This document shows positions 302 to 9,950 of a stretch of DNA of 64,000 bases, piece after piece. How positions within the stretch are numbered: the stretch's first letter is position 1; every line of letters begins with the position of its first letter. The DNA is from Acidimicrobiales bacterium. Lineage in GTDB: Bacteria; Actinomycetota; Acidimicrobiia; Acidimicrobiales; DATDAH01. Under the pieces are notes generated by a model. That model was not told the origin of the DNA and ran no database searches. It saw only the letters and a program-made list of their open reading frames with translations. The stretch covers positions 1-64,000 of the forward strand of contig JAEUJM010000029.1 in assembly GCA_016794585.1 (NCBI GenBank), given 5' to 3'. A program made the translations under genes and the position numbers.

Positions 302-1378
302 GTGCCCGCCGCTCCCGCCGACCCCACCTCGCTGGCCGCGACCAGCGACTTCCTGCGCGCCTGCCGCAGCGAGCCCGTCGACCGCATCCCCGTCTGGTTC
401 ATGCGCCAGGCCGGGCGCTCGCTGCCCGAGTACCGGGCCGTGCGGGGGGAGGGCAGCATCCTCCAGGCCATCAAGGACCCGGAGCTGTCGGCCACGATCA
501 CCCGCCAGCCGGTCGAGCGCTACGACGTCGACGCGGCCATCCTCTACTCCGACATCGTCGTGCCCGCGGAGGCCATCGGCTTCGGGGTGGACGTGGTGCC
601 GGGCGTCGGCCCCGTCATCGCCGAGCCCTTCTCGTCGGCCGCCGACCTCCAGCGCCTCCGTCCACTCGACCCCGAGGCCGACACGCCCTACGTGCTCGAG
701 ACCGTGCGCCTGCTGGTCGAGCAGCTCGACGTCCCGCTGATCGGCTTCGCCGGCGCGCCCTTCACCGTGGCCAGCTACCTGATCGAGGGTCGCCCCTCGA
801 GGACCTACGCCAAGACCAAGGCCCTCATGCACGGCGACCCGGCGCTCTGGGAGAAGCTCGTCGACGCCCTCGCCGACCTGGCCCTCGCCTCCCTGCGGTC
901 CCAGGTGGCCGCCGGCGCCTCGGCCATCCAGCTCTTCGACAGCTGGGCGGGCGCCCTGTCCCCCGAGGACTACCGCCGCTTCGTGCTGCCCGCCAGCGCC
1001 AAGGTGCTCGAGGGCATCGGCGAGACCGGGGTGCCCCGCATCCACTTCGGGGTGGGCACGGGCGAGCTGCTCGGCCTGCTGGGCGAGGCCGGTGCCGACG
1101 TCGTGGGCGTCGATTGGCGGGTGCCCCTCGACGAGGCCCGCCGGCGGGTCGGCGGTCGCGCCCTCCAGGGCAACCTGGACCCGGCGCTGTGCCTGGCCCC
1201 GTGGCCCGTGGTGGCCGACGCCACCCGCGAAGTGCTGCGCCGCGGCGGCGGCCTCGGCCACGTGTTCAACCTGGGCCACGGCGTCCTGCCCGAGACCGAC
1301 CCGACCGTGCTCGAGAAGGTCGTGGCGCTCGTCCACGACGAAGGCGTCGCCCTCGGCGCCGAAGGAGTCGCATCGTGA
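302..1378 (+). CDS. hemE: Uroporphyrinogen decarboxylase
   Basis: Decarboxylates the four acetate side chains of uroporphyrinogen III to give coproporphyrinogen III in cytosolic heme synthesis. The 358-aa length is normal for the family. The N-terminal signature [10 protein letters not shown] lies at residues 30-39 with its substrate-carboxylate Arg residues, the conserved Asp is in LYSDIVVP (about D84), GAPFT is mid-protein, and [11 protein letters not shown] is near the C-terminus. The start is GTG at 302. The stop overlaps the hemH GTG by 4 bp (GTGA), so hemE and hemH are translationally coupled. It is the first gene of hemE-hemH-hemY. Confidence 0.96.
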
Positions 1379-2307
1379 CCGGTCCCGCGCCCGTCGGCGT
1401 CGTGGTCATGGCCTACGGCACGCCGAAGCGACCCGAGGACGTCGAGGCCTACTACACCCACATCCGCCGCGGCCGTCCGCCCGAGCCCGAGCAGCTGGCC
1501 GACCTCCAGCGCCGCTACGACGCCCTCGGCGGCGTCTCCCCCCTCGCGCAGCGCACCGAGGCGCAGCGGGCCGCCATCGAGGCCGCGCTCGAGACCCGCG
1601 TGCCCGGCGGCTACCGGGTGGTGCTGGGTCAGAAGCACGCCAGCCCCTTCATCGAGGACGCCGTCGGTACCCTTGCCGACGACGGCGTCACCCGGACGGT
1701 GGGCCTCGTCCTCGCCCCCCACTACTCCGGCTTCAGCGTCGGCGAGTACCAGAAGCGCCTGGCCGAGGCCGCCGCCGAGCGGGGCGTCACCGCCGCCGGC
1801 ATCGAGAGCTGGCACCTCCAGCCCGCCTACCTGGACTTCCTCGCCGGCGCCCTGCGGGACACCCTCGCCGGCCTGCCCGAACGCACCCGGGTGGTCTTCA
1901 CCGCCCACTCCCTCCCCGAGCGGGTGCTGCAGGGCGACCCGTACCCGGACCAGCTGCGCGCCAGCGCCGCCGCGGTCGTCGAGCGCGTCGGTGCCGCGGC
2001 GCAGGACTGGGGCGTCGCCTGGCAGAGCGCCGGCCGCACGCCCGAGCCGTGGCGCGGCCCCGACATCCTCGACGTCATCCGGGAGGTCGCCGCCGGCGGC
2101 CAGCACGACGGAATCGCCGTGTGCGCGCAGGGCTTCGTGGCCGACCACCTCGAGGTGCTCTACGACCTCGACATCGAGGCCAAGGCCGTGGCCGACGAGG
2201 TCGCCCTCGCCTTCGGCCGCACCGCTTCGCTCAACGCCGAACCCACCGTGATGGCCGCCCTCGCCGACCTGGTCGTGGCCGCCACCCCACCCGAGGAGCC
2301 CACCTGA
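1375..2307 (+). CDS. hemH: Ferrochelatase (coproporphyrin type inferred)
   Basis: Inserts Fe2+ into the porphyrin ring; with ChdC encoded at 46.2 kb and HemY next door, the likely substrate is coproporphyrin III (CpfC activity, inferred). The 310-aa protein starts with GTG overlapping the hemE stop. It has the N-terminal MAYGTP motif, the metal-binding His in [10 protein letters not shown] (H178) and the partner Glu in GFVADHLE (E260). Only one Cys (C250) is present, so it cannot carry the four-Cys [2Fe-2S] cluster described for mycobacterial ferrochelatases. The frame is open well upstream, but earlier starts would overlap hemE heavily. Confidence 0.93.
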
Positions 2308-2341
2308 TGCCCTCCCCCACCCGAAACGCCCGAACTCGAGC

Positions 2342-2370
2342 CGATGGCGCGCGCCGGGCGCGCGCCATCG
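2342..2370. terminator. Perfect 14-bp inverted repeat between hemH and hemY
   Basis: CGATGGCGCGCGCC and its exact reverse complement flank a single G, in the 112-bp gap between hemH and hemY. Pairing extends outward to about 2331-2381 after one mismatch (CTCGAG against CCTCGGG with a wobble). No U-tract follows, so it may be a factor-assisted terminator, an attenuator or an mRNA-stability hairpin rather than a classical intrinsic terminator. Confidence 0.55.
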
Positions 2371-2419
2371 CCTCGGGAACGGGATCGAACGCCGCCGCCG
2401 GGGTCCCGGGGGTGAGGCG

Positions 2420-3826
2420 ATGAGCCGCGTCGTCATCGTCGGCGGCGGCATCGCCGGCCTCGCCGCCGCGTATGAACTGGCCAAGCACCCCGAGGCCGAC
2501 GTCGTCCTGCTCGAGGCGGGCCCCCGTCTCGGCGGCAAGATCGAGACGCAGCCCTTCGCCGGCCTGCCGGTCGAGCTCGGCCCGGACACGTTCCTCGCCC
2601 GCGTGCCGTGGGCGGTCGACCTGTGCAAGGAGCTGGGCCTGTTCGACGAGTTGGTCAGCCCCGAGCAGACCACCGCCTACCTGTGGGTCCGGGGTGCCCT
2701 GCGCCGGCTGCCCGAGGCCCACGTCCTGGGCGTGCCCACCGACTTCGACCAGCTCGCGGCCAGCGGCCTGGTGTCGCCCGAGGCCGTCGCCATCGCCCGC
2801 CGTGACCTCGACCACCCGGAGGACGCGCCTGGGCGGCTGCCCGGTGACGGGGCCGAGGGTGACTGCTCCGTGGGCGAGCTGATCCGCTCGCGCCTCGGCG
2901 ACGAGGTGCTCGAGCGCATCGTCGACCCGCTCATCGGCGGCATCAACGCCGGCGACTCCGACCGCCTCAGCGTGGCTGCCGCCGCTCCCCAGATCGCCGG
3001 CGCCGCACAGAGCAACGCCAGCCTGGTGCGGGGCCTCCTGGCCATGAAGGCGGCGGCGCCCCCCGATCCCGGGACGCCGATGTTCTACAGCCTGCCCGGC
3101 GGCCTCCAGCGCCTCGTCGACCGGGTGGTGGACGCCATCACGGCCGAGGTGCACCTGGGCACACCGGCCATCAGCGTCGAACGTCGGTCCGGCGGCGGGT
3201 ACGCCGTGCACACCGCCGGCGGCCCCATCGAGGCCGACGCCGTCGTGCTCGCCAGCCCCGCCTTCGCCGACGCCCGACTGCTCGAGGCCGTCGCCCCCGG
3301 GCCCGCCGCCGCGCTCGGCGCCATCGACTACTCGTCGGTCGCCCTCGTCACCCTGGCCGTGCCCGCCGACGCGGTCGAGCGCCCCCTCGACGCCAGCGGC
3401 TACCTCGTCCCCCGCACCGAGGGCTGCCTCATCACCGCCTGTACCTGGGCGTCGAGCAAGTGGGCCCACCTCGCCGCCCCCGGTCAGGTGCTGCTCCGGG
3501 CGTCGGCCGGCCGCTACGGCGACGAGCGCATCGCCGACCTCGACGACGACGCCCTGGTCGCCGGCGTGCGGGCCGACCTCGCCACCACCATGGGTCTCGA
3601 CGCGGCGCCGACCGACGTGCGCATCGTGCGCTGGACCGACTCGTTCCCGCAGTACACGCCCGGCCACCTCCAGCGCATGACCGCGCTCGACGAGCAGCTC
3701 GCCGCCGAGGTGCCCGGCGTGGTCCTCGCCGGCGCCGTGCAGAAGGGCGTGGGCATCCCCGCTTGCATCCGCCAGGGCCGCGAGGCGGCGAACGCCGTCC
3801 TCACCGCCACCGGCGCCGGCGCCTGA
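2420..3826 (+). CDS. hemY: Coproporphyrinogen/protoporphyrinogen oxidase, HemY type
   Basis: FAD enzyme that oxidises coproporphyrinogen III to coproporphyrin III in the actinobacterial/firmicute heme route (CgoX role inferred from the neighbouring ferrochelatase and ChdC at 46.2 kb). The 468-aa length is standard. The N-terminus carries the dinucleotide motif VVIVGGGIAGLAAA (about residues 4-17) and the flavin-monooxidase segment LEAGPRLGGK. The C-terminus has the second FAD region with VVLAGAVQKGVGIP and an ESG-like end. The ATG at 2420 follows a purine-rich GGGGGTGAGG site. It lies 112 bp after hemH, behind a strong hairpin, so its level may be set separately from hemEH. Confidence 0.92.
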   Translation: MSRVVIVGGGIAGLAAAYELAKHPEADVVLLEAGPRLGGKIETQPFAGLPVELGPDTFLARVPWAVDLCKELGLFDELVSPEQTTAYLWVRGALRRLPEAHVLGVPTDFDQLAASGLVSPEAVAIARRDLDHPEDAPGRLPGDGAEGDCSVGELIRSRLGDEVLERIVDPLIGGINAGDSDRLSVAAAAPQIAGAAQSNASLVRGLLAMKAAAPPDPGTPMFYSLPGGLQRLVDRVVDAITAEVHLGTPAISVERRSGGGYAVHTAGGPIEADAVVLASPAFADARLLEAVAPGPAAALGAIDYSSVALVTLAVPADAVERPLDASGYLVPRTEGCLITACTWASSKWAHLAAPGQVLLRASAGRYGDERIADLDDDALVAGVRADLATTMGLDAAPTDVRIVRWTDSFPQYTPGHLQRMTALDEQLAAEVPGVVLAGAVQKGVGIPACIRQGREAANAVLTATGAGA

Positions 3827-3840
3827 ACCCCTCCCCTCCA

Positions 3841-3894
3841 TCGTTCTGGTACGTCCCCGGCAACACTGATGTTGCCAACTCGTGACCAGAACGA
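3841..3894. repeat. Nested palindromic repeat, copy 1
   Basis: A 54-bp element with outer 10-bp arms TCGTTCTGGT (3841-3850) and ACCAGAACGA (3885-3894) and inner 7-bp arms GGCAACA/TGTTGCC (3859-3876) around CTGA. It starts 14 bp after hemY. It is nearly identical to copy 2 (3948-4001) and related to copies at 53.6 and 58.0 kb. It has no coding potential and no T-tract. Confidence 0.85.
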
Positions 3895-3947
3895 GCCGAC
3901 CGAACAGCCGTTCCGGCACGCCGCCGGCGCCTCAGCCCTCCCCTCCA

Positions 3948-4001
3948 TCGTTCTGGTATGTCCCCGGCAACACTGATGTTGCCAACTCGTGACCAGAACG
4001 A
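3948..4001. repeat. Nested palindromic repeat, copy 2
   Basis: Differs from copy 1 by one base inside the 54-bp element (TATG for TACG after the left arm) and lies exactly 107 bp downstream. The flanks (CTCCCCTCCA before the arm and GGCGCCT further left) are also shared, so copies 1 and 2 look like a local tandem duplication that includes the extreme 3' end region of hemY. Confidence 0.85.
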
Positions 4002-4064
4002 ACCGAGCCCGTACCGGACGGGCGTGACTGGCCGCCGGGCCGCCGGGCGACGAAGATCGGCGCC

Positions 4065-5660
4065 TTGACCGAGCCCACCACCGACGCCGATCCGGCCGAC
4101 GACCCGACGAGCGCGGGCACCGTCGCTGCCGACCGACCGGCGATGACGCGCGGCGCCAAGGCGCTGCTCGCGCTGCGCTGCGTCGGCACCGGCCTCGTCC
4201 TCGCTGCCTCGGTGCCGCCGTGGGGCTGGTGGCCCCTGGCCTTCGTCGGCATCGCCCTGCTCGACCGCCTCATCGCCGGCCAGGCCCGCAAGGCCCGGTT
4301 CCGGCGCACCTGGCTGGTGTGCGCCGCCTGGCTGTACCCGTCGATGCTCTGGATGGTCGACCTCACCCTGCCCGGCTACCTGATCGCCTGTGCCACCTAC
4401 GCCGCCTACTTCGGCGTCACGGTGGCGCTGCTGCCGTCGAGCCGGTGGCGCTGGCTGGGGCTCCCGGGAGCCTTCGTGCTCGCCGAGTGGGCTCGCTGGT
4501 CGTGGCCGTTCGGCGGTGTGCCCCTGTCCACGCTGGCCATGAGCCAGGCCGCCGCACCCCTCGCCTTCACGGTGCGCCTCGCCGGCAGCCTCGTCCTGGT
4601 GCTCATCGTCGTGCTCGTCGGTGTCGCCCTGTCCGCCCTGTGGGAGCGGGCGCCCCAACAGGCCGGACTCGCCCTCGGCGCCGTCGCCCTCATCGCCCTG
4701 GGCGCCTGGGTGGCGCCGCGGGCCCACAGCGTCGAGGACCTCGACATCGCCATCGTGCAGGGTGGAGGCCCCCAGCGCACCCGGGCCAGCGAGACCGACC
4801 CCCGGGACGTCTTCGAACGCCACCTCGAAGCCAGCGAGGAGGTCGACACCCCCGTCGACCTCGTCCTGTGGCCGGAGAACGTGATCAACGTCGAAGGCAG
4901 CCTCGAGGTCAACCCCGAGAACGAGGAGCTGGCCGAGCTGGCCCGCCGCCTCGACACCACGCTGATCGTCGGGGCGGTCGAGGGCGCCGACGACAACTTC
5001 CTCAACGCGGCGGTGGTCTACGCACCCGACGGTCGCATCGTCGACCGCTACGACAAGGTCAAGCGGGTGCCCTTCGGTGAGTACGTGCCGCTGCGGGGCC
5101 TGTTGGAGCGCTTCAACAGCGAGCTCCCCGGCCGCGACGCCCTCGCCGGCGACACCCCCGCCATCGTGCAGACGCCCGCCGGCAAGTTCGGCGTGGTCAT
5201 CTCCTGGGAGGTGTTCTTCAGCACCCGCGGGCGCGACGCCATCGGCAACGGCGGCGACGTCCTGCTCAACCCCACCAACGGCTCCTCCTACTGGCTCACC
5301 CAGGTGCAGAGCCAGCAGGTGGCCTCCTCCCGCCTCCGGGCCCTCGAGAACGACCGCTGGGTGCTCCAGGCGGCGCCGACGGGGTTCTCGGCCATCGTCA
5401 GCCCGGAGGGTCGGGTGGTCGACCGGACCGGCGTCAGCGAGCAGCGCGTCCTCCAGGACACCATCACCCGCCGCCAGGGCGAGACCCTCGCCACCCGCGT
5501 CGGCGACCTCCCCGTGCTCGTCGTGGCGATCGCCCTGATGCTCGCCGCCCACCTCCTCGACCGCCGCTCGCGCCGTGTCGTCACCGCCGCGGCGTCCGAC
5601 GGGCCGACCGCGGGCGACGACCCGGGCGCCACCCCGCCGACCGGTAGCGTCGGGGCGTGA
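4065..5660 (+). CDS. lnt: Apolipoprotein N-acyltransferase-like membrane protein
   Basis: Lnt attaches the third acyl chain to the N-terminal Cys of lipoproteins in the membrane. The 531-aa length, several hydrophobic N-terminal segments (about residues 45-225) and a C-terminal carbon-nitrogen hydrolase domain (about 230-490) fit the family. The Glu (LWPEN, E271) and Lys (RYDK, K331) of the catalytic triad are present, but the nucleophile region reads VVISWEVFF, so the family Cys is Ser380. It may be a variant acyltransferase or an inactive or repurposed homologue. The TTG at 4065 gives the longest form; an ATG at 4143 (MTRGAK) is an alternative start. The stop overlaps the next gene. Confidence 0.82.
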   Translation: MTEPTTDADPADDPTSAGTVAADRPAMTRGAKALLALRCVGTGLVLAASVPPWGWWPLAFVGIALLDRLIAGQARKARFRRTWLVCAAWLYPSMLWMVDLTLPGYLIACATYAAYFGVTVALLPSSRWRWLGLPGAFVLAEWARWSWPFGGVPLSTLAMSQAAAPLAFTVRLAGSLVLVLIVVLVGVALSALWERAPQQAGLALGAVALIALGAWVAPRAHSVEDLDIAIVQGGGPQRTRASETDPRDVFERHLEASEEVDTPVDLVLWPENVINVEGSLEVNPENEELAELARRLDTTLIVGAVEGADDNFLNAAVVYAPDGRIVDRYDKVKRVPFGEYVPLRGLLERFNSELPGRDALAGDTPAIVQTPAGKFGVVISWEVFFSTRGRDAIGNGGDVLLNPTNGSSYWLTQVQSQQVASSRLRALENDRWVLQAAPTGFSAIVSPEGRVVDRTGVSEQRVLQDTITRRQGETLATRVGDLPVLVVAIALMLAAHLLDRRSRRVVTAAASDGPTAGDDPGATPPTGSVGA

Positions 5661-6463
5661 TCGAGCTCTCCGCCGGCCAGGCCCGGGCCACCCTCGACCC
5701 CGACGCCGGCGGGCGCCTCGCCCAGCTCTCCGTCGACGGTCTCGACCTGCTGGTCGAGCGGCAGGAGTCGCCCACCCAATGGGGGTGCTTCCCCATGGCG
5801 CCGTGGGCGGGGCGCATCCGCAACGGTCGATTCACGTGGGAGGGCACCGAGTACCAGCTCCCTCGGAACAAGGCCCCCCATGCCATACACGGCGTCACCT
5901 ACGACCGCCCCTGGACCGTGGTCGATGCCACCGAGACCAACGCCACCCTGCGCATCGACCTCGACGAGCGGTGGCCCCTCGGGGGTTGGGTCCTCCAGAC
6001 GTTCACCCTCGACCACGACAACCTGCACCTGCGCATGGAGGTCCACGCCGGCGACCGCCCGATGCCCGCCAGCTGCGGCTGGCACCCGTGGTTCCGCCGC
6101 CAGCTCGAGCGGGGCGGGCCCCTCCAGCTCGACTTCCAGGCCGGGATGATGTGGCACAAGGACGACGAGGGCATCCCCTCGGGTGCGGTCACCAGCCCCA
6201 CGCCGCCGCCGTGGGACGACTGCTTCACCGACATGGTCGACCCGCCCGAGCTGCGCTGGCCCGGCGCGCTCCAGCTCGACATCGAGTCGCACTGCACCGA
6301 CTGGGTGATCTACACCGAGCCCGACCACGCCCTGTGCGTCGAGCCCCAGACGGGGCCGCCCGACGTGCTCAACCTCGATCCCGCCGAGGCTGCGCCTGGC
6401 ACCGACGGCGGCCCGGACCACCCCGTGATCGCCACCGCCACGTTCCGCTGGTGGGCCGACTGA
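5657..6463 (+). CDS. Aldose 1-epimerase family protein
   Basis: Galactose-mutarotase-fold protein expected to interconvert alpha and beta anomers of a sugar or sugar phosphate in the cytosol. Family residues seen are the His in HAIHG (H78), the His in CGWHPWF (H143) and the general-base Glu in CVEPQTGPPD (about residue 225). The 268-aa length is at the short end, typical of bacterial YeaD/GalM-like members. It starts with GTG overlapping the lnt stop (GTGA), so it is co-translated with lnt, although no functional link between lipoprotein acylation and sugar mutarotation is evident. Confidence 0.87.
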   Translation: MIELSAGQARATLDPDAGGRLAQLSVDGLDLLVERQESPTQWGCFPMAPWAGRIRNGRFTWEGTEYQLPRNKAPHAIHGVTYDRPWTVVDATETNATLRIDLDERWPLGGWVLQTFTLDHDNLHLRMEVHAGDRPMPASCGWHPWFRRQLERGGPLQLDFQAGMMWHKDDEGIPSGAVTSPTPPPWDDCFTDMVDPPELRWPGALQLDIESHCTDWVIYTEPDHALCVEPQTGPPDVLNLDPAEAAPGTDGGPDHPVIATATFRWWAD

Positions 6464-6656
6464 GGCCACGGCCGGCCGCCGGCGGACGCGAGACACCGCC
6501 GGCACACCCCGAGAACGCGGCCGCCACGTCCCTGGGACGGCTCCCTCCGCACCGCTCCGACACCGCGCGCGCACGGCCGGGAGGGGCCCGGAGGCCGTTC
6601 GCAACCGCCCCGGGCGGCCCTTGCCACTTCGGTTCTCGCCGCCCGCCCCCGTACAC

Positions 6657-6672
6657 TTGACCGACCGGTCAA
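6657..6672. promoter_or_regulatory. TTGACC-GACC-GGTCAA palindrome, possible operator
   Basis: A perfect 6-bp inverted repeat with a 4-bp spacer, 22 bp upstream of the TTG start of the GT4 gene, inside a 231-bp gap. Its size and symmetry fit a TetR- or GntR-type repressor site. No regulator gene is adjacent, so the assignment is inference only. Confidence 0.4.
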
Positions 6673-6694
6673 CGCCCGGAAAGGCTCCGATCAC

Positions 6695-8071
6695 TTGGCA
6701 TCCACCCCGCACGACGACGATCCCCTCCGGATCGCCCTGCTCACCTACCGCGGCAAGAAGCACTGCGGGGGCCAAGGCGTCTACGTCCGCCACCTCTCGA
6801 AGGCCCTGACCCTCCTCGGGCACCACGTCGAGGTGCTGAGCGGGCCGCCCTATCCCGAGACCGTCGACGAGGTGCCGCTCATCGAGCTGCCCAGCCTCGA
6901 GATCTACAACGACCACTTCCCCATGCGCTTCCCCGCCATCTGGGAGCTGAAGAACTGGACCGACGTCGCCGAGGTCCTCTCGTTCTCGTCCGGCACCTTC
7001 CCGGAGCCGCTCGCGTTCAGCCTGCGGGCCTGGGACCACCTCAAGCACCGGGTCGACGAGTTCGACATCGTCCAGGACAACCAGTCCATGGGCTACGGCC
7101 TGCTCGGCATCGAGCGCGCCGGCCTGCCCGTCCTCGGCACCATCCACCACCCCATCACCGTGGACCGCAAACTCGAGATGGAGCACGCCGAGACGCCCTA
7201 CCAGCGCTTTGCCAAGGGCCGCTGGTACGCCTTCACGAAGATGCAGAGCCGGGTCGCCCAGCGCCTCACCCGCATCCTGACCGTCTCCGAGTCGTCCCGT
7301 GGCGACATCATCAAGGACCACGGCGTCGACCCCGACCGCCTGCACGTCGTGCCGGTGGGCGTCGACCCCGAGACCTTCCTGCCCGTCCCGGGAGTGACGC
7401 CGGTTCCCGGGCGCATCATCACCACCGCCAGCGCCGACGTGGCCATGAAGGGCCTCGTGTACCTGCTCGAGGCCGTGGCCAAGCTGCGCACCGAGAACCC
7501 CGACATCCACCTCGTGGTCATCGGCAAGCCCAAGGAGGAAGGCCGCACGGCCCGCACCCTCGCAGAGCTGGGCCTGAGCGACGCCGTCGAGTTCGTCAGC
7601 GGCGTGTCCGAGCAGCGCATCGTCGAGCTGTACTCCGAGTCCGAGCTCGCGGTCGTGCCCTCGCTCTACGAGGGCTTCTCGCTCCCCGCCATCGAGGCCA
7701 TGTCGTGCTCGGTGTGCCTCGTGGCCACCACCGGCGGAGCCATCCCCGAGGTCGTGGGCAAGGACGGCGAGACCGCCCTGCTCGTGCCCCCCGGCGACAG
7801 CGAGGCCCTCGCGGTGGCCCTGCGCCGCGGCCTCGACGACCCGGATCTGCGGGCCCGCATCGGCGCCGCCGGCCGCCAGCGCATCATCGAGCGCTGGAGC
7901 TGGACGGTCACCGCGGAGAAGACGGTCGAGCAGTACCGCGCCCGCCTCGCCGAGCCCACCATCAGCACCCAAGTCCCGGGCCTGGGCGAGCTCCCGTCCC
8001 TCCCCGGTCTGCCGTCGCTCGACGACGTCGGCGGGGCGCTCGCCGGCCTGCGCCGCCGGCTGCCGGTCTGA
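6695..8071 (+). CDS. GT4-family glycosyltransferase
   Basis: A retaining GT-B glycosyltransferase that probably transfers a sugar from a nucleotide donor to a cell-envelope glycan or lipid. The N-terminal half begins with IALLTYRGK and has the Gly-rich CGGQGVYVRHLS loop. The C-terminal donor domain contains the EX7E motif in YEGFSLPAIEAM (E326 and E334) and a GGAIPEVV donor loop. The start is TTG at 6695 with GGAAAGG upstream; no ATG lies near. A Pro/Leu/Gly-rich tail of about 40 residues follows the GT domain. It is the first gene of a three-gene unit with a methyltransferase and a toroid protein. The acceptor is unknown. Confidence 0.88.
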   Translation: MASTPHDDDPLRIALLTYRGKKHCGGQGVYVRHLSKALTLLGHHVEVLSGPPYPETVDEVPLIELPSLEIYNDHFPMRFPAIWELKNWTDVAEVLSFSSGTFPEPLAFSLRAWDHLKHRVDEFDIVQDNQSMGYGLLGIERAGLPVLGTIHHPITVDRKLEMEHAETPYQRFAKGRWYAFTKMQSRVAQRLTRILTVSESSRGDIIKDHGVDPDRLHVVPVGVDPETFLPVPGVTPVPGRIITTASADVAMKGLVYLLEAVAKLRTENPDIHLVVIGKPKEEGRTARTLAELGLSDAVEFVSGVSEQRIVELYSESELAVVPSLYEGFSLPAIEAMSCSVCLVATTGGAIPEVVGKDGETALLVPPGDSEALAVALRRGLDDPDLRARIGAAGRQRIIERWSWTVTAEKTVEQYRARLAEPTISTQVPGLGELPSLPGLPSLDDVGGALAGLRRRLPV

Positions 8072-8092
8072 GCGGGGCGGGCACACCACACG

Positions 8093-8902
8093 ATGCTGAC
8101 CGTCGACTACGACCGTCTCGGCCTCCAGGCCGGTGACCTGCTCCTCGACATGGGCTGCGGCGCGGGCCGCCACGCCTTCGAGTCCTACCGGCGCGGTGCT
8201 CGCGTCATCGCCTTCGACTACTCGCACCCCGAGTTGGTCGACGTGCGGGGCATCTTCGGGGCCATGCAACAGGCCGGCGAGGGACCGAAGCACGGTCTCG
8301 CGACGGGCGTGAACGGCGACGCGGTGAAGCTGCCGTTCCCCGACGACACCTTCGACCGCATCATCGCCTCCGAGGTGCTCGAGCACGTCCCCGACGACGA
8401 GGGCGCCCTCGACGAGCTGATGCGGGTCCTACGCCCCGGCGGGATCATCGCCGCCACCATCCCGGCGTGGTTCCCCGAGAAGGTCTGCTGGGCCCTCTCG
8501 GACGAGTACCACGCCCCCTTCGTGGTGGGCGGGCACGTCCGCATCTACACCGAGGACGAGCTCCGCCAGAAGATGAAGGCGGCGGGCCTCGAGCCCGGCC
8601 CCAGCCACCACGCCCACGCCCTGCACTCGCCGTACTGGTGGCTCAAGTGCGCGGTCGGTCCCACCAACGACGAGAACCCGCTCGTGAAGGCGTACCTGCG
8701 CCTCCTCACCTGGGACATCATGAAGCAGCCCCTCGTCCTCCAGGTCGCCGAGAAGGTGCTCCAGCCCCTCATGGGCAAGAGCCTGATCGTCTACGCCCGC
8801 AAGCCCCTGGCCACGGTGGCCCCGCCGGCGCCCCGGGTCTCGGCCACGGCCACGCCCGAGACCGCCCCTCCCACCGAAAGGCAGACCGCCGATGTCGCGT
8901 GA
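8093..8902 (+). CDS. Class I SAM-dependent methyltransferase
   Basis: The Rossmann-type SAM-binding motif I, LLDMGCGAGRHAF, lies at residues 17-29 and acidic motif II is IAFDYS. The motif IASEVLEHVPDD and the post-II segment LRPGGIIAATIP are typical of the Methyltransf_11 family. The 269-aa length is usual. The substrate is not predictable; context (GT4 upstream, toroid protein overlapping downstream by 11 bp) suggests O-methylation of a glycan or glycolipid. The start is ATG, 21 bp after the GT4 stop, so it is probably in one transcript. Confidence 0.85.
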   Translation: MLTVDYDRLGLQAGDLLLDMGCGAGRHAFESYRRGARVIAFDYSHPELVDVRGIFGAMQQAGEGPKHGLATGVNGDAVKLPFPDDTFDRIIASEVLEHVPDDEGALDELMRVLRPGGIIAATIPAWFPEKVCWALSDEYHAPFVVGGHVRIYTEDELRQKMKAAGLEPGPSHHAHALHSPYWWLKCAVGPTNDENPLVKAYLRLLTWDIMKQPLVLQVAEKVLQPLMGKSLIVYARKPLATVAPPAPRVSATATPETAPPTERQTADVA

Positions 8903-9950
8903 GCTCCACCTCCCTGAGGTGCCCGACCTCGTGACCGCCGACGAGATGCTGGCCACCGCCGCCGCCATCGTCGAGTGGCAGCTGCCCTCGGGCATGATCC
9001 CCTGGTTCCCCGGCGGCCACGCCGACGTGTGGAACCACGTCGAGGCGGCCATGGCCCTCGACCTCTGCGGCTTCCACGAGGAGGCACTCGCCGCCTACCA
9101 GTGGCTGGTCGGCCTCCAGCGCCCCGACGGCGCCTGGCACCAGTACTACCTCGAGGACGGCATCGAGCAGGACAAGCTCGACGCCAACACCTGCGCCTAC
9201 GTGGCCGCCGGCGTGTGGCACCACTACCTGCTCACCCGGGACCTGAAGTTCCTCGAGTCGATGTGGTCGATGGTCGAGCCCGCCATCGACTTCGTGCTCG
9301 ACCTCCAGACGCCGCGCGGTGAGATCCTCTGGGCCCGCCACGCCGACGGCACCCCCTGGTCGTTCGCCCTGCTCACCGGCTCGTCGAGCATCTGCCACTC
9401 GCTGCGGTGCGCCATCGCCATCGCGGAGGAGCTCGGCCACGAGCGCCCCGACTGGGAGCTCAGCGTCGCCCGTCTCGCCCGCGTCATCGCCACCGAACCC
9501 GACGCCTTCGCCCCCAAGCACCGCTGGGCCATGGACTGGTACTACCCGGTGCTCGCCGGCGTGCTCACCGGCGACGCCGGCCGCACCCATCTCGCCGAGC
9601 GCCGCGGCACCTTCCTCTTCGAGGACAAGGGCATCCGCTGCGTGTCCGACCGTCCGTGGATCACCGCGGCCGAGACCTGCGAGTGCCTCATCGCCCACCT
9701 CGCCGTGGGCGAGGTCGAGCTGGCCACGGACCTGTTCGCCATGGCGCAGGGCCACCGGGCCGACAACGGCCGCTACTGGACGGGCATCGTCTACCCCGAG
9801 GAAGCCACCTTCCCCGGCGGCGAGCAGTCCACCTACACCGCCGCCTCGGTGATCCTGGCCGCCGACGCCCTCACCGGCGCCACCCAGGCCAGCAAGCTCT
9901 TCGTCGACCACGACGCGGTGCTGCCCCCGCTCCTCCCCCTCGACGACTAG
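8892..9950 (+). CDS. Alpha-toroid protein, prenyltransferase/cyclase-like
   Basis: A 352-aa, almost wholly helical soluble protein with repeated aromatic-rich motifs (WQLPSGMIPWFPGG, WLVGLQRPDGAWHQYY, QTPRGEILWARH) resembling the QW/toroid repeats of squalene cyclases, prenyltransferases and six-hairpin glycosidases. I see no DXDD cyclase acid motif and no signal peptide. It begins inside the methyltransferase gene (11-bp overlap), a strong sign of coupling. Its activity is unknown: it could process a prenyl chain or a glycan made by the two upstream genes. GT4-methyltransferase-toroid triads look familiar from other actinobacteria, but I cannot verify this here. Confidence 0.7.
   Translation: MSRELHLPEVPDLVTADEMLATAAAIVEWQLPSGMIPWFPGGHADVWNHVEAAMALDLCGFHEEALAAYQWLVGLQRPDGAWHQYYLEDGIEQDKLDANTCAYVAAGVWHHYLLTRDLKFLESMWSMVEPAIDFVLDLQTPRGEILWARHADGTPWSFALLTGSSSICHSLRCAIAIAEELGHERPDWELSVARLARVIATEPDAFAPKHRWAMDWYYPVLAGVLTGDAGRTHLAERRGTFLFEDKGIRCVSDRPWITAAETCECLIAHLAVGEVELATDLFAMAQGHRADNGRYWTGIVYPEEATFPGGEQSTYTAASVILAADALTGATQASKLFVDHDAVLPPLLPLDD

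Follow-up and report, generated by a model that had tools for sequence, protein, structure and literature searches.

Lnt homologues with serine in place of the catalytic cysteine in Acidimicrobiales and other actinobacterial lineages

In Acidimicrobiales and at least three further actinobacterial lineages, the natural Lnt proteins are probably nitrilase-superfamily enzymes with a Ser nucleophile, which arose repeatedly from Cys enzymes, reverted once and would work through an oxyester acyl-enzyme and a retuned acceptor loop, the acceptor being either lipoproteins or a new acceptor in the envelope. In the nitrilase superfamily, Cys is, to our knowledge, regarded as the fixed nucleophile. Presence of a Ser-type Lnt as the sole copy across nearly the whole order suggests, as far as sequences can tell, a working serine version of the enzyme. 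Already known are a mycobacterial Ser paralogue that is thought to be inactive and the engineered C387S mutant of the Escherichia coli enzyme; an order-wide, sole-copy Ser-Lnt is new within the literature searched. This search for a natural sole-copy Ser-Lnt, a natural Ser nitrilase or an Lnt of Acidimicrobiia, which left most subscription papers outside its scope, returned nothing beyond the mycobacterial paralogue, and it uncovered no prior proof that a natural clade with Ser is active.

Results

The window encodes an Lnt homologue with Ser at the nucleophile position

The gene lies in a stretch of 64,000 nucleotides, hereafter the window, of an Acidimicrobiales genome (GenBank GCA_016794585.1, contig JAEUJM010000029.1, positions 1 to 64,000; Table 1). 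Its product scores 214.9 bits with the NCBIfam profile TIGR00546 (lnt), as compared to a cut-off of 132.9 bits, and shows the domain order of Lnt in Pfam, that is LNT_N followed by CN_hydrolase. Other branches of the nitrilase superfamily, in which CN_hydrolase occurs without LNT_N, were considered and rejected, as LNT_N is present here and TIGR03381 reached 28 bits versus 410. The start codon is uncertain: the alternative ATG is codon 27, and the alignments of many relatives begin only at about residues 25-40.

Table 1. Coordinates of the lnt homologue, its domains and active-site residues, and neighbouring genes in the window
Feature	Position	Strand	Basis or remark
lnt homologue	4065..5660	+	531 aa, TTG start; alternative ATG 4143; ORF, TIGR00546, PDB Lnt chains
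LNT_N membrane domain, residues 43-187	4191..4625	+	Pfam PF20154, 64.1 bits
CN_hydrolase (nitrilase) domain, residues 228-470	4746..5474	+	Pfam PF00795
Glu271 (E. coli E267, proposed general base)	4875..4877	+	E in 211/211 covering Ser proteins (2 gaps)
Lys331 (E. coli K335)	5055..5057	+	K in 211/211 covering Ser proteins (2 gaps)
Glu339 (E. coli E343)	5079..5081	+	E in 211/211 covering Ser proteins (2 gaps)
Ser380 (TCC), at the place of nucleophile C387	5202..5204	+	alignment, relatives' columns
Glu382 (E. coli E389)	5208..5210	+	E in 213/213 Ser proteins
Gly406 (E. coli D413, cavity-lining)	5280..5282	+	possible co-change; N/D in most Cys-type, rarely in Ser-type
Gln418 (E. coli H425, beside nucleophile)	5316..5318	+	Q also in nearest Cys clade
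FAD amine oxidoreductase (protoporphyrinogen oxidase-like), upstream neighbour	2420..3826	+	Pfam; match in 39/53 loci
Group 1 glycosyltransferase, downstream neighbour	6695..8071	+	Pfam; match in 41/53 loci
ORF without Pfam match	8892-9950	+	similar gene in 38/53 loci

Among PDB sequences the best matches of the protein are Lnt chains (phmmer, best E 3.8e-20), and its segment ISWEVFF is aligned by phmmer with ISYEIIL of 5vrh, which the structure search identifies as the E. coli C387S mutant. The AlphaFold model (mean pLDDT 84.2, pTM 0.85) retrieved PDB Lnt chains at ranks 1-24 of the structure search, with TM scores of 0.71-0.77 by query length. In this predicted structure, Ser380 opens a short elbow helix (H380-383) that follows the strand 373-377. 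The loop with Glu339 (residues 334-343) has a pLDDT below 50, so the predicted geometry of the active site is weakly based.

The Lnt proteins of E. coli and Pseudomonas aeruginosa (TIGR00546; PDB 5N6H, 5N6M) have in common with the window protein the membrane and nitrilase domains, the Glu and Lys of the triad, the equivalents of E343 and E389 and the predicted fold. However, as compared to E. coli Lnt, the window protein has Ser for Cys387, Gln for His425, Gly for Asp413, Leu for Trp148 and Ala for Trp237. Cysteines occur at just three positions (39, 86 and 109), none of them outside the membrane domain. A reading of the window from its letters alone (the sequence-only reading) had described an Lnt homologue with Ser in place of the catalytic Cys and with Glu271 and Lys331 kept; the alignment bears this out, since Ser380 aligns with C387, the nitrilase domain holds no Cys, and Glu271 and Lys331 match E. 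coli E267 and K335. As the Cys nucleophile of the classical family is absent, we file the protein as a Ser-type Lnt homologue and not as a classical Lnt.

Ser380 is invariant in the main Lnt clade of the order

Ser occupies the column in all 48 order relatives that cover it (29 and 19 in two sets) and in 80 of 80 named close relatives, which excludes chance. The latter are the best 80 of 483 relatives, scanned with patterns that leave out the nucleophile, and thus reflect close relatives; among these best 80 of 483, 54 titles name Acidimicrobiia, Acidimicrobiales, Acidimicrobiaceae, Microthrix or Microthrixaceae. The main Lnt clade of the order gave the same picture, with Ser in 160 of 160 distinct proteins (174 before removal of 14 identical rows; three extra Cys copies, L220-L222, left out and L199 from genome G266, labelled same class, left in). 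Ser380 belongs to 22 invariant columns of this clade, which also comprise E271, K331, E339 and E382.

Codon usage at this column was also followed. Of the 160 proteins, 135 have a TCN codon and 25 an AGY codon for Ser380, and the FastTree tree requires at least seven switches between the two classes (parsimony minimum). A switch of this kind is described in PMC6872785 as requiring a tandem substitution. It takes either such a tandem change or an intermediate Thr or Cys, and neither residue occurs at the column in the 160 proteins. A single base change would turn four of the six Ser codons (TCC, TCT, AGC and AGT) into a Cys codon. The only other columns with at least 85% Ser are S408 (156/160, 11 switches) and S442 (147/160, 29 switches), and at these Thr, or Thr and Gly, also occur. 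Codon switches in themselves are therefore not unusual; what is unusual at the Ser380 column is that no other residue is found. Judged by these alignments, the position bears every sign of selection for Ser.

The Ser-type Lnt is mostly the only copy

To place the protein among its relatives, the phylum, class and order were surveyed by searches with the window protein and with TIGR00546, and the stretches found were then read. This yielded 251 actinobacterial Lnts from 231 genomes, 126 of which had Ser-type Lnt only, 100 Cys-type only and 5 both, the sampling being weighted by design to the order and class of the window. For further matches in the order, 40 stretches were read. A copy is called the only Lnt when it was the only one read or, where TIGR00546 was used, the only one over the cut-off; searches with the window protein alone may miss a diverged second copy, as in G019.

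A single Ser copy was present in 89 of the 93 order genomes read, and G337 has two Ser copies. Three genomes, all of family f20 (G019, G300 and G328), have an extra Cys copy. The proteins concerned (L220 in G328, L221 in G300 and L222 in G019) carry the motif CFEE, stand beside the Ser type and belong to another clade, where they group with L086, L140 and the Ser copies of family f87. In f87, two genomes (G128 and G198) have one Ser and one Cys Lnt each. All eight genomes of f112, which are 0.9-1.1 Mb in size, have one Ser Lnt as the sole protein over the cut-off. The genome of the window itself has three CN_hydrolase matches in all and one TIGR00546 match over the cut-off; the second Lnt gene that the sequence-only reading proposed to look for is thus absent at this threshold. 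Over 148 genomes of the order, TIGR00546 had matches above the cut-off in 126 and none above it in 22, and 9 were without any match, which indicates that Lnt is not universal in the order.

Cys and Ser have replaced each other several times

A tree of 94 rows was computed with IQ-TREE after exclusion of the nucleophile column. L052, of which only a C-terminal piece is available, was excluded from the trees, and L216, which is below the cut-off and lacks the motif, from the alignment. The tree needs five changes between Cys and Ser, a number that is the same at the lower and the upper limit of the 5-95% bootstrap range, and the well-supported branches alone force four. Grouping of all Ser proteins into a single clade was rejected, as this costs 442 log units (AU p 1.4e-45, 47 rows). 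With Cys taken as ancestral, the tree may be read as four gains of Ser and one return to Cys, the proposed gains being those in the order, in further families of the class jointly with f95/f102, in f65 and in the second copies of f87. L088 and L091 (f120) are Cys enzymes nested inside a Ser clade and represent an apparent return from Ser to Cys.

The Ser clade of the order has a support of 100/100 and adjoins, in the midpoint-rooted tree, the Cys clade of f82/f87/f91/f94/f109 (97/97); the Ser second copies of f87 fall apart from it. FastTree on 211 rows also required five changes but placed f95/f102 beside the order with a support of 89, and this disagreement makes the placement of the three f95/f102 rows less sure. 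The sequence-only reading had taken the Ser as a feature of one gene, and in this respect it falls short: the residue is order-wide and has changed several times in the phylum. One further protein, L199 (G266:C8), comes from a genome labelled as the same class but not the same order, and its lnt lies inside the order's Ser clade near that of the window; either a mis-binned contig or a transfer would account for it. Five Acidimicrobiales-like Ser-type lnt genes (L264, L268, L271, L277 and L324) come from public records whose titles look wrong, four of them naming Bifidobacterium breve and one Acidobacteria.

Residues around the nucleophile

Residues reported as essential in Lnt include W237, E343, Y388 and E389 (PMC3850990). 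While E339 and E382 are kept in the window protein, position 388 is W and the W237 equivalent is A241. Cys-type Lnts too have F, Y or W at position 388, and the W237 column likewise varies among them. At column 413, part of the D413-F416 segment that is reported to line the cavity of E. coli Lnt (PMC5500890), 97 of 116 Cys proteins have N or D, versus 2 of 96 Ser proteins. In three of four Ser lineages this column differs from the compared Cys group, the exception being f87, and in f120 the Cys proteins share a Glu at it with their Ser kin. A co-change of column 413 with Ser is suggested by this pattern, for which a sign test cannot reach 0.05 with only four to five independent pairs.

His425 is described as adjacent to Cys387 in E. 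coli Lnt (PMC5500888), and nearly all proteins of the order have Gln or Glu at its column. A change from His to Gln as partner of the Ser change was considered but is not supported, since Gln is found in the nearest Cys clade too and His is retained by the f65 Ser proteins. In the order, L/M/I and V/L prevail at the positions equivalent to the lid-loop residues W148 and F146, respectively. In the other Ser lineages the W148 equivalent is mostly kept, so its change does not track Ser.

Genomic context

The lnt homologue is preceded by hemE, ferrochelatase and the protoporphyrinogen oxidase-like gene and followed by genes for an aldose epimerase, a glycosyltransferase and a methyltransferase (Pfam). 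Using tblastn (E 1e-10) on 53 named loci with a length of 9 kb or more, matches were counted for hemE in 35, the methyltransferase in 41, ferrochelatase in 5 and the epimerase in 1. A block at window positions 302-9950 (+), consisting of hemE, the oxidase-like gene, lnt, the glycosyltransferase, the methyltransferase and the ORF at 8892-9950, is kept in most named relatives.

Profile searches detected Lgt (221.5 bits) and LspA (111.4 bits) in the genome. Several lipoproteins had been noticed in the window before, and indeed a regular expression finds three ORFs with a convincing lipobox (12299, 24266 and 40370, all on the + strand) and a doubtful one (49448). Together, Lgt, LspA and the lipobox ORFs make a lipoprotein substrate likely.

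Discussion

A putative Ser nucleophile

It is reasonable to assume that the order's enzyme forms an acyl-enzyme on Ser380, which we regard as highly probable, and we lean towards an active Lnt that uses this Ser as its nucleophile and N-acylates lipoproteins. In the proposed mechanism, Glu271 would remove the proton from Ser380, which would attack the sn-1 ester of a phospholipid, the oxyanion being stabilised by Lys331, held by Glu339, and by the backbone of the elbow. An oxyester acyl-enzyme would thus be formed and lyso-phospholipid released, and the acyl chain would then be taken by the amino group of the diacylglyceryl-Cys of an apolipoprotein. Transfer to this amine would have to occur at a useful rate, perhaps aided by the loop changes after T404-N405. 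Support for this N-acyltransferase comes from the invariance of Ser380 and its codon switches, the sole copy, the kept equivalents of E267, K335, E343 and E389, the predicted Lnt fold, the lack of another candidate Cys, the presence of Lgt, LspA and lipobox ORFs, and the position of the order clade, which adjoins a Cys clade and is apart from the f87 second copies. That the enzyme may use Ser, one of the options offered by the sequence-only reading, is well supported by these features as far as conservation, codon switches, sole copy and the retained Glu and Lys are concerned.

Engineered E. coli C387S (PDB 5VRH, 8B0M) has the same Glu-Lys-Ser set as the window protein. It is, however, a laboratory mutant that serves as an inactive or low-activity form and was not tuned by evolution, whereas the Ser of the window protein is natural. 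According to PMC6828757, C387S forms the oxyester acyl intermediate, does not achieve acyl transfer and serves as an inactive control. PMC10313180 reports low activity and an N-acylated product, FP3, in the cryo-EM map. Both the acyl-enzyme of the former and the product of the latter favour an active Ser enzyme, but the two accounts disagree on step 2, which is the step that a natural Ser enzyme needed to improve.

Actinobacterial Lnts like that of the window are known from mycobacteria and corynebacteria (BCG_2070c/Rv2051c, MSMEG_3860 and Cg-Ppm2). N-acylation is reported as demonstrated for BCG_2070c, MSMEG_3860 and Cg-Ppm2 (PMC3850990, PMC3460810). BCG_2070c and Rv2051c keep Cys according to PMC3850990, whereas the window protein has Ser; the f82/f87 Cys clade, which has Gln at 425 and adjoins the order's Ser clade, probably includes these mycobacterial and corynebacterial enzymes. 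Ser at 387 is natural in BCG_2279c and Rv2262c/2261c, as stated in PMC3850990, and is thus common to BCG_2279c and the window protein. In that account, BCG_2279c did not compensate for loss of BCG_2070c, and a contributive role was favoured for it; Streptomyces scabies Lnt2 is described there as subsidiary. However, BCG_2279c is a second copy beside a Cys enzyme, and split in M. tuberculosis, whereas the copy of the order is mostly alone and no Cys-type Lnt accompanies it in the window's genome, which has a single TIGR00546 match. The Ser second copies of f87 may be orthologues of BCG_2279c.

Counted against an active N-acyltransferase in the order are the transfer failure of C387S in PMC6828757 and the inability of BCG_2279c to replace BCG_2070c in PMC3850990. 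To these are added the Gln in place of His beside the nucleophile, the replacement of W237 by A241, although this column varies in Cys-type Lnts too, the low confidence of the model at residues 334-343 and the 22 order genomes without a match over the cut-off. Moreover, as a matter of general chemistry, oxyesters donate acyl groups to amines less well than thioesters do, and this also weighs against such an activity.

Alternative explanations

Step 2 is also where a different outcome is conceivable, namely that the acyl chain is passed to a hydroxyl, as in a glycolipid, a polyprenyl sugar or a lyso-lipid, or to water, so that the protein would act as an O-acyltransferase or phospholipase and lipoproteins would stay diacylated. 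The reported ability of C387S to perform step 1 and not step 2 (PMC6828757) fits such a changed acceptor, as do the distribution of N/D at the cavity-lining column 413, the altered lid-loop equivalents of W148 and F146 in the order and the glycosyltransferase and methyltransferase genes near lnt. Yet the usual acceptor probably exists, given Lgt, LspA and the lipobox ORFs; the W148 equivalent is mostly kept in the other Ser lineages, the neighbouring genes may be merely a conserved block, and C387S gave an N-acyl product in one study (PMC10313180). We consider a changed acceptor rather unlikely, but it is the form in which the suggestion of the sequence-only reading that N-acylation may have been lost still competes; loss through decay of the enzyme is contradicted by conservation.

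The failure of BCG_2279c, which has the same change from Cys to Ser, to stand in for BCG_2070c (PMC3850990) could instead point to a catalytically silent, Lnt-like scaffold or partner, as suggested for that protein. This appears quite improbable for the order: BCG_2279c and S. scabies Lnt2 are second copies, whereas here the Ser protein is the only Lnt in nearly all order genomes read, its clade is distinct from that of the f87 second copies, and there is no evident reason why a silent protein should keep Glu, Lys, both further Glu residues and exactly Ser, rather than Cys, Ala or Thr, throughout. The sequence-only reading had also allowed for another residue as the nucleophile. A displaced Cys in this role is very unlikely, as the nitrilase domain is free of Cys in 152 of the 160 order-clade proteins, no Cys column exceeds 26% in this set, and the commonest, window residue 45, lies in the membrane domain, as do all five Cys columns above 10%. 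Alignment with actinobacterial Lnts revealed no Cys nucleophile elsewhere in the domain. A decaying gene, a sequencing error or a mis-set frame can hardly be entertained at all, being refuted by the conservation of Ser in the order (both sets of 48 and 80 relatives), and the gene order kept in most of the 53 loci and the well-modelled fold speak against it as well.

Implications

If most of the order runs its sole Lnt on Ser, Cys would not be needed for the chemistry, and annotation or inhibitor rules that demand it, as in the case of blockers of Lnt directed at a thiol, would not hold for these bacteria. The several Cys/Ser changes with one apparent reversal would then constitute a natural experiment in turning a thioester into an oxyester enzyme. 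The f20 genomes with both types offer a natural background for comparing Cys and Ser Lnt, and lipoprotein N-acylation in the order becomes a directly testable question.

A repeat upstream of lnt

Two 71-bp copies, 97% identical, lie between the oxidase-like gene and lnt at window positions 3829-3899 and 3936-4006 (+). Searches for the repeat core gave no further occurrence in the 5.49 Mb genome (3 mismatches allowed), none in 98 other genomes of the order (2 mismatches allowed) and none in viral contigs (exact match), and Rfam returned a single match far under its gathering score and none over threshold. The first copy (3829-3899) folds with a strong hairpin (z -6.2).
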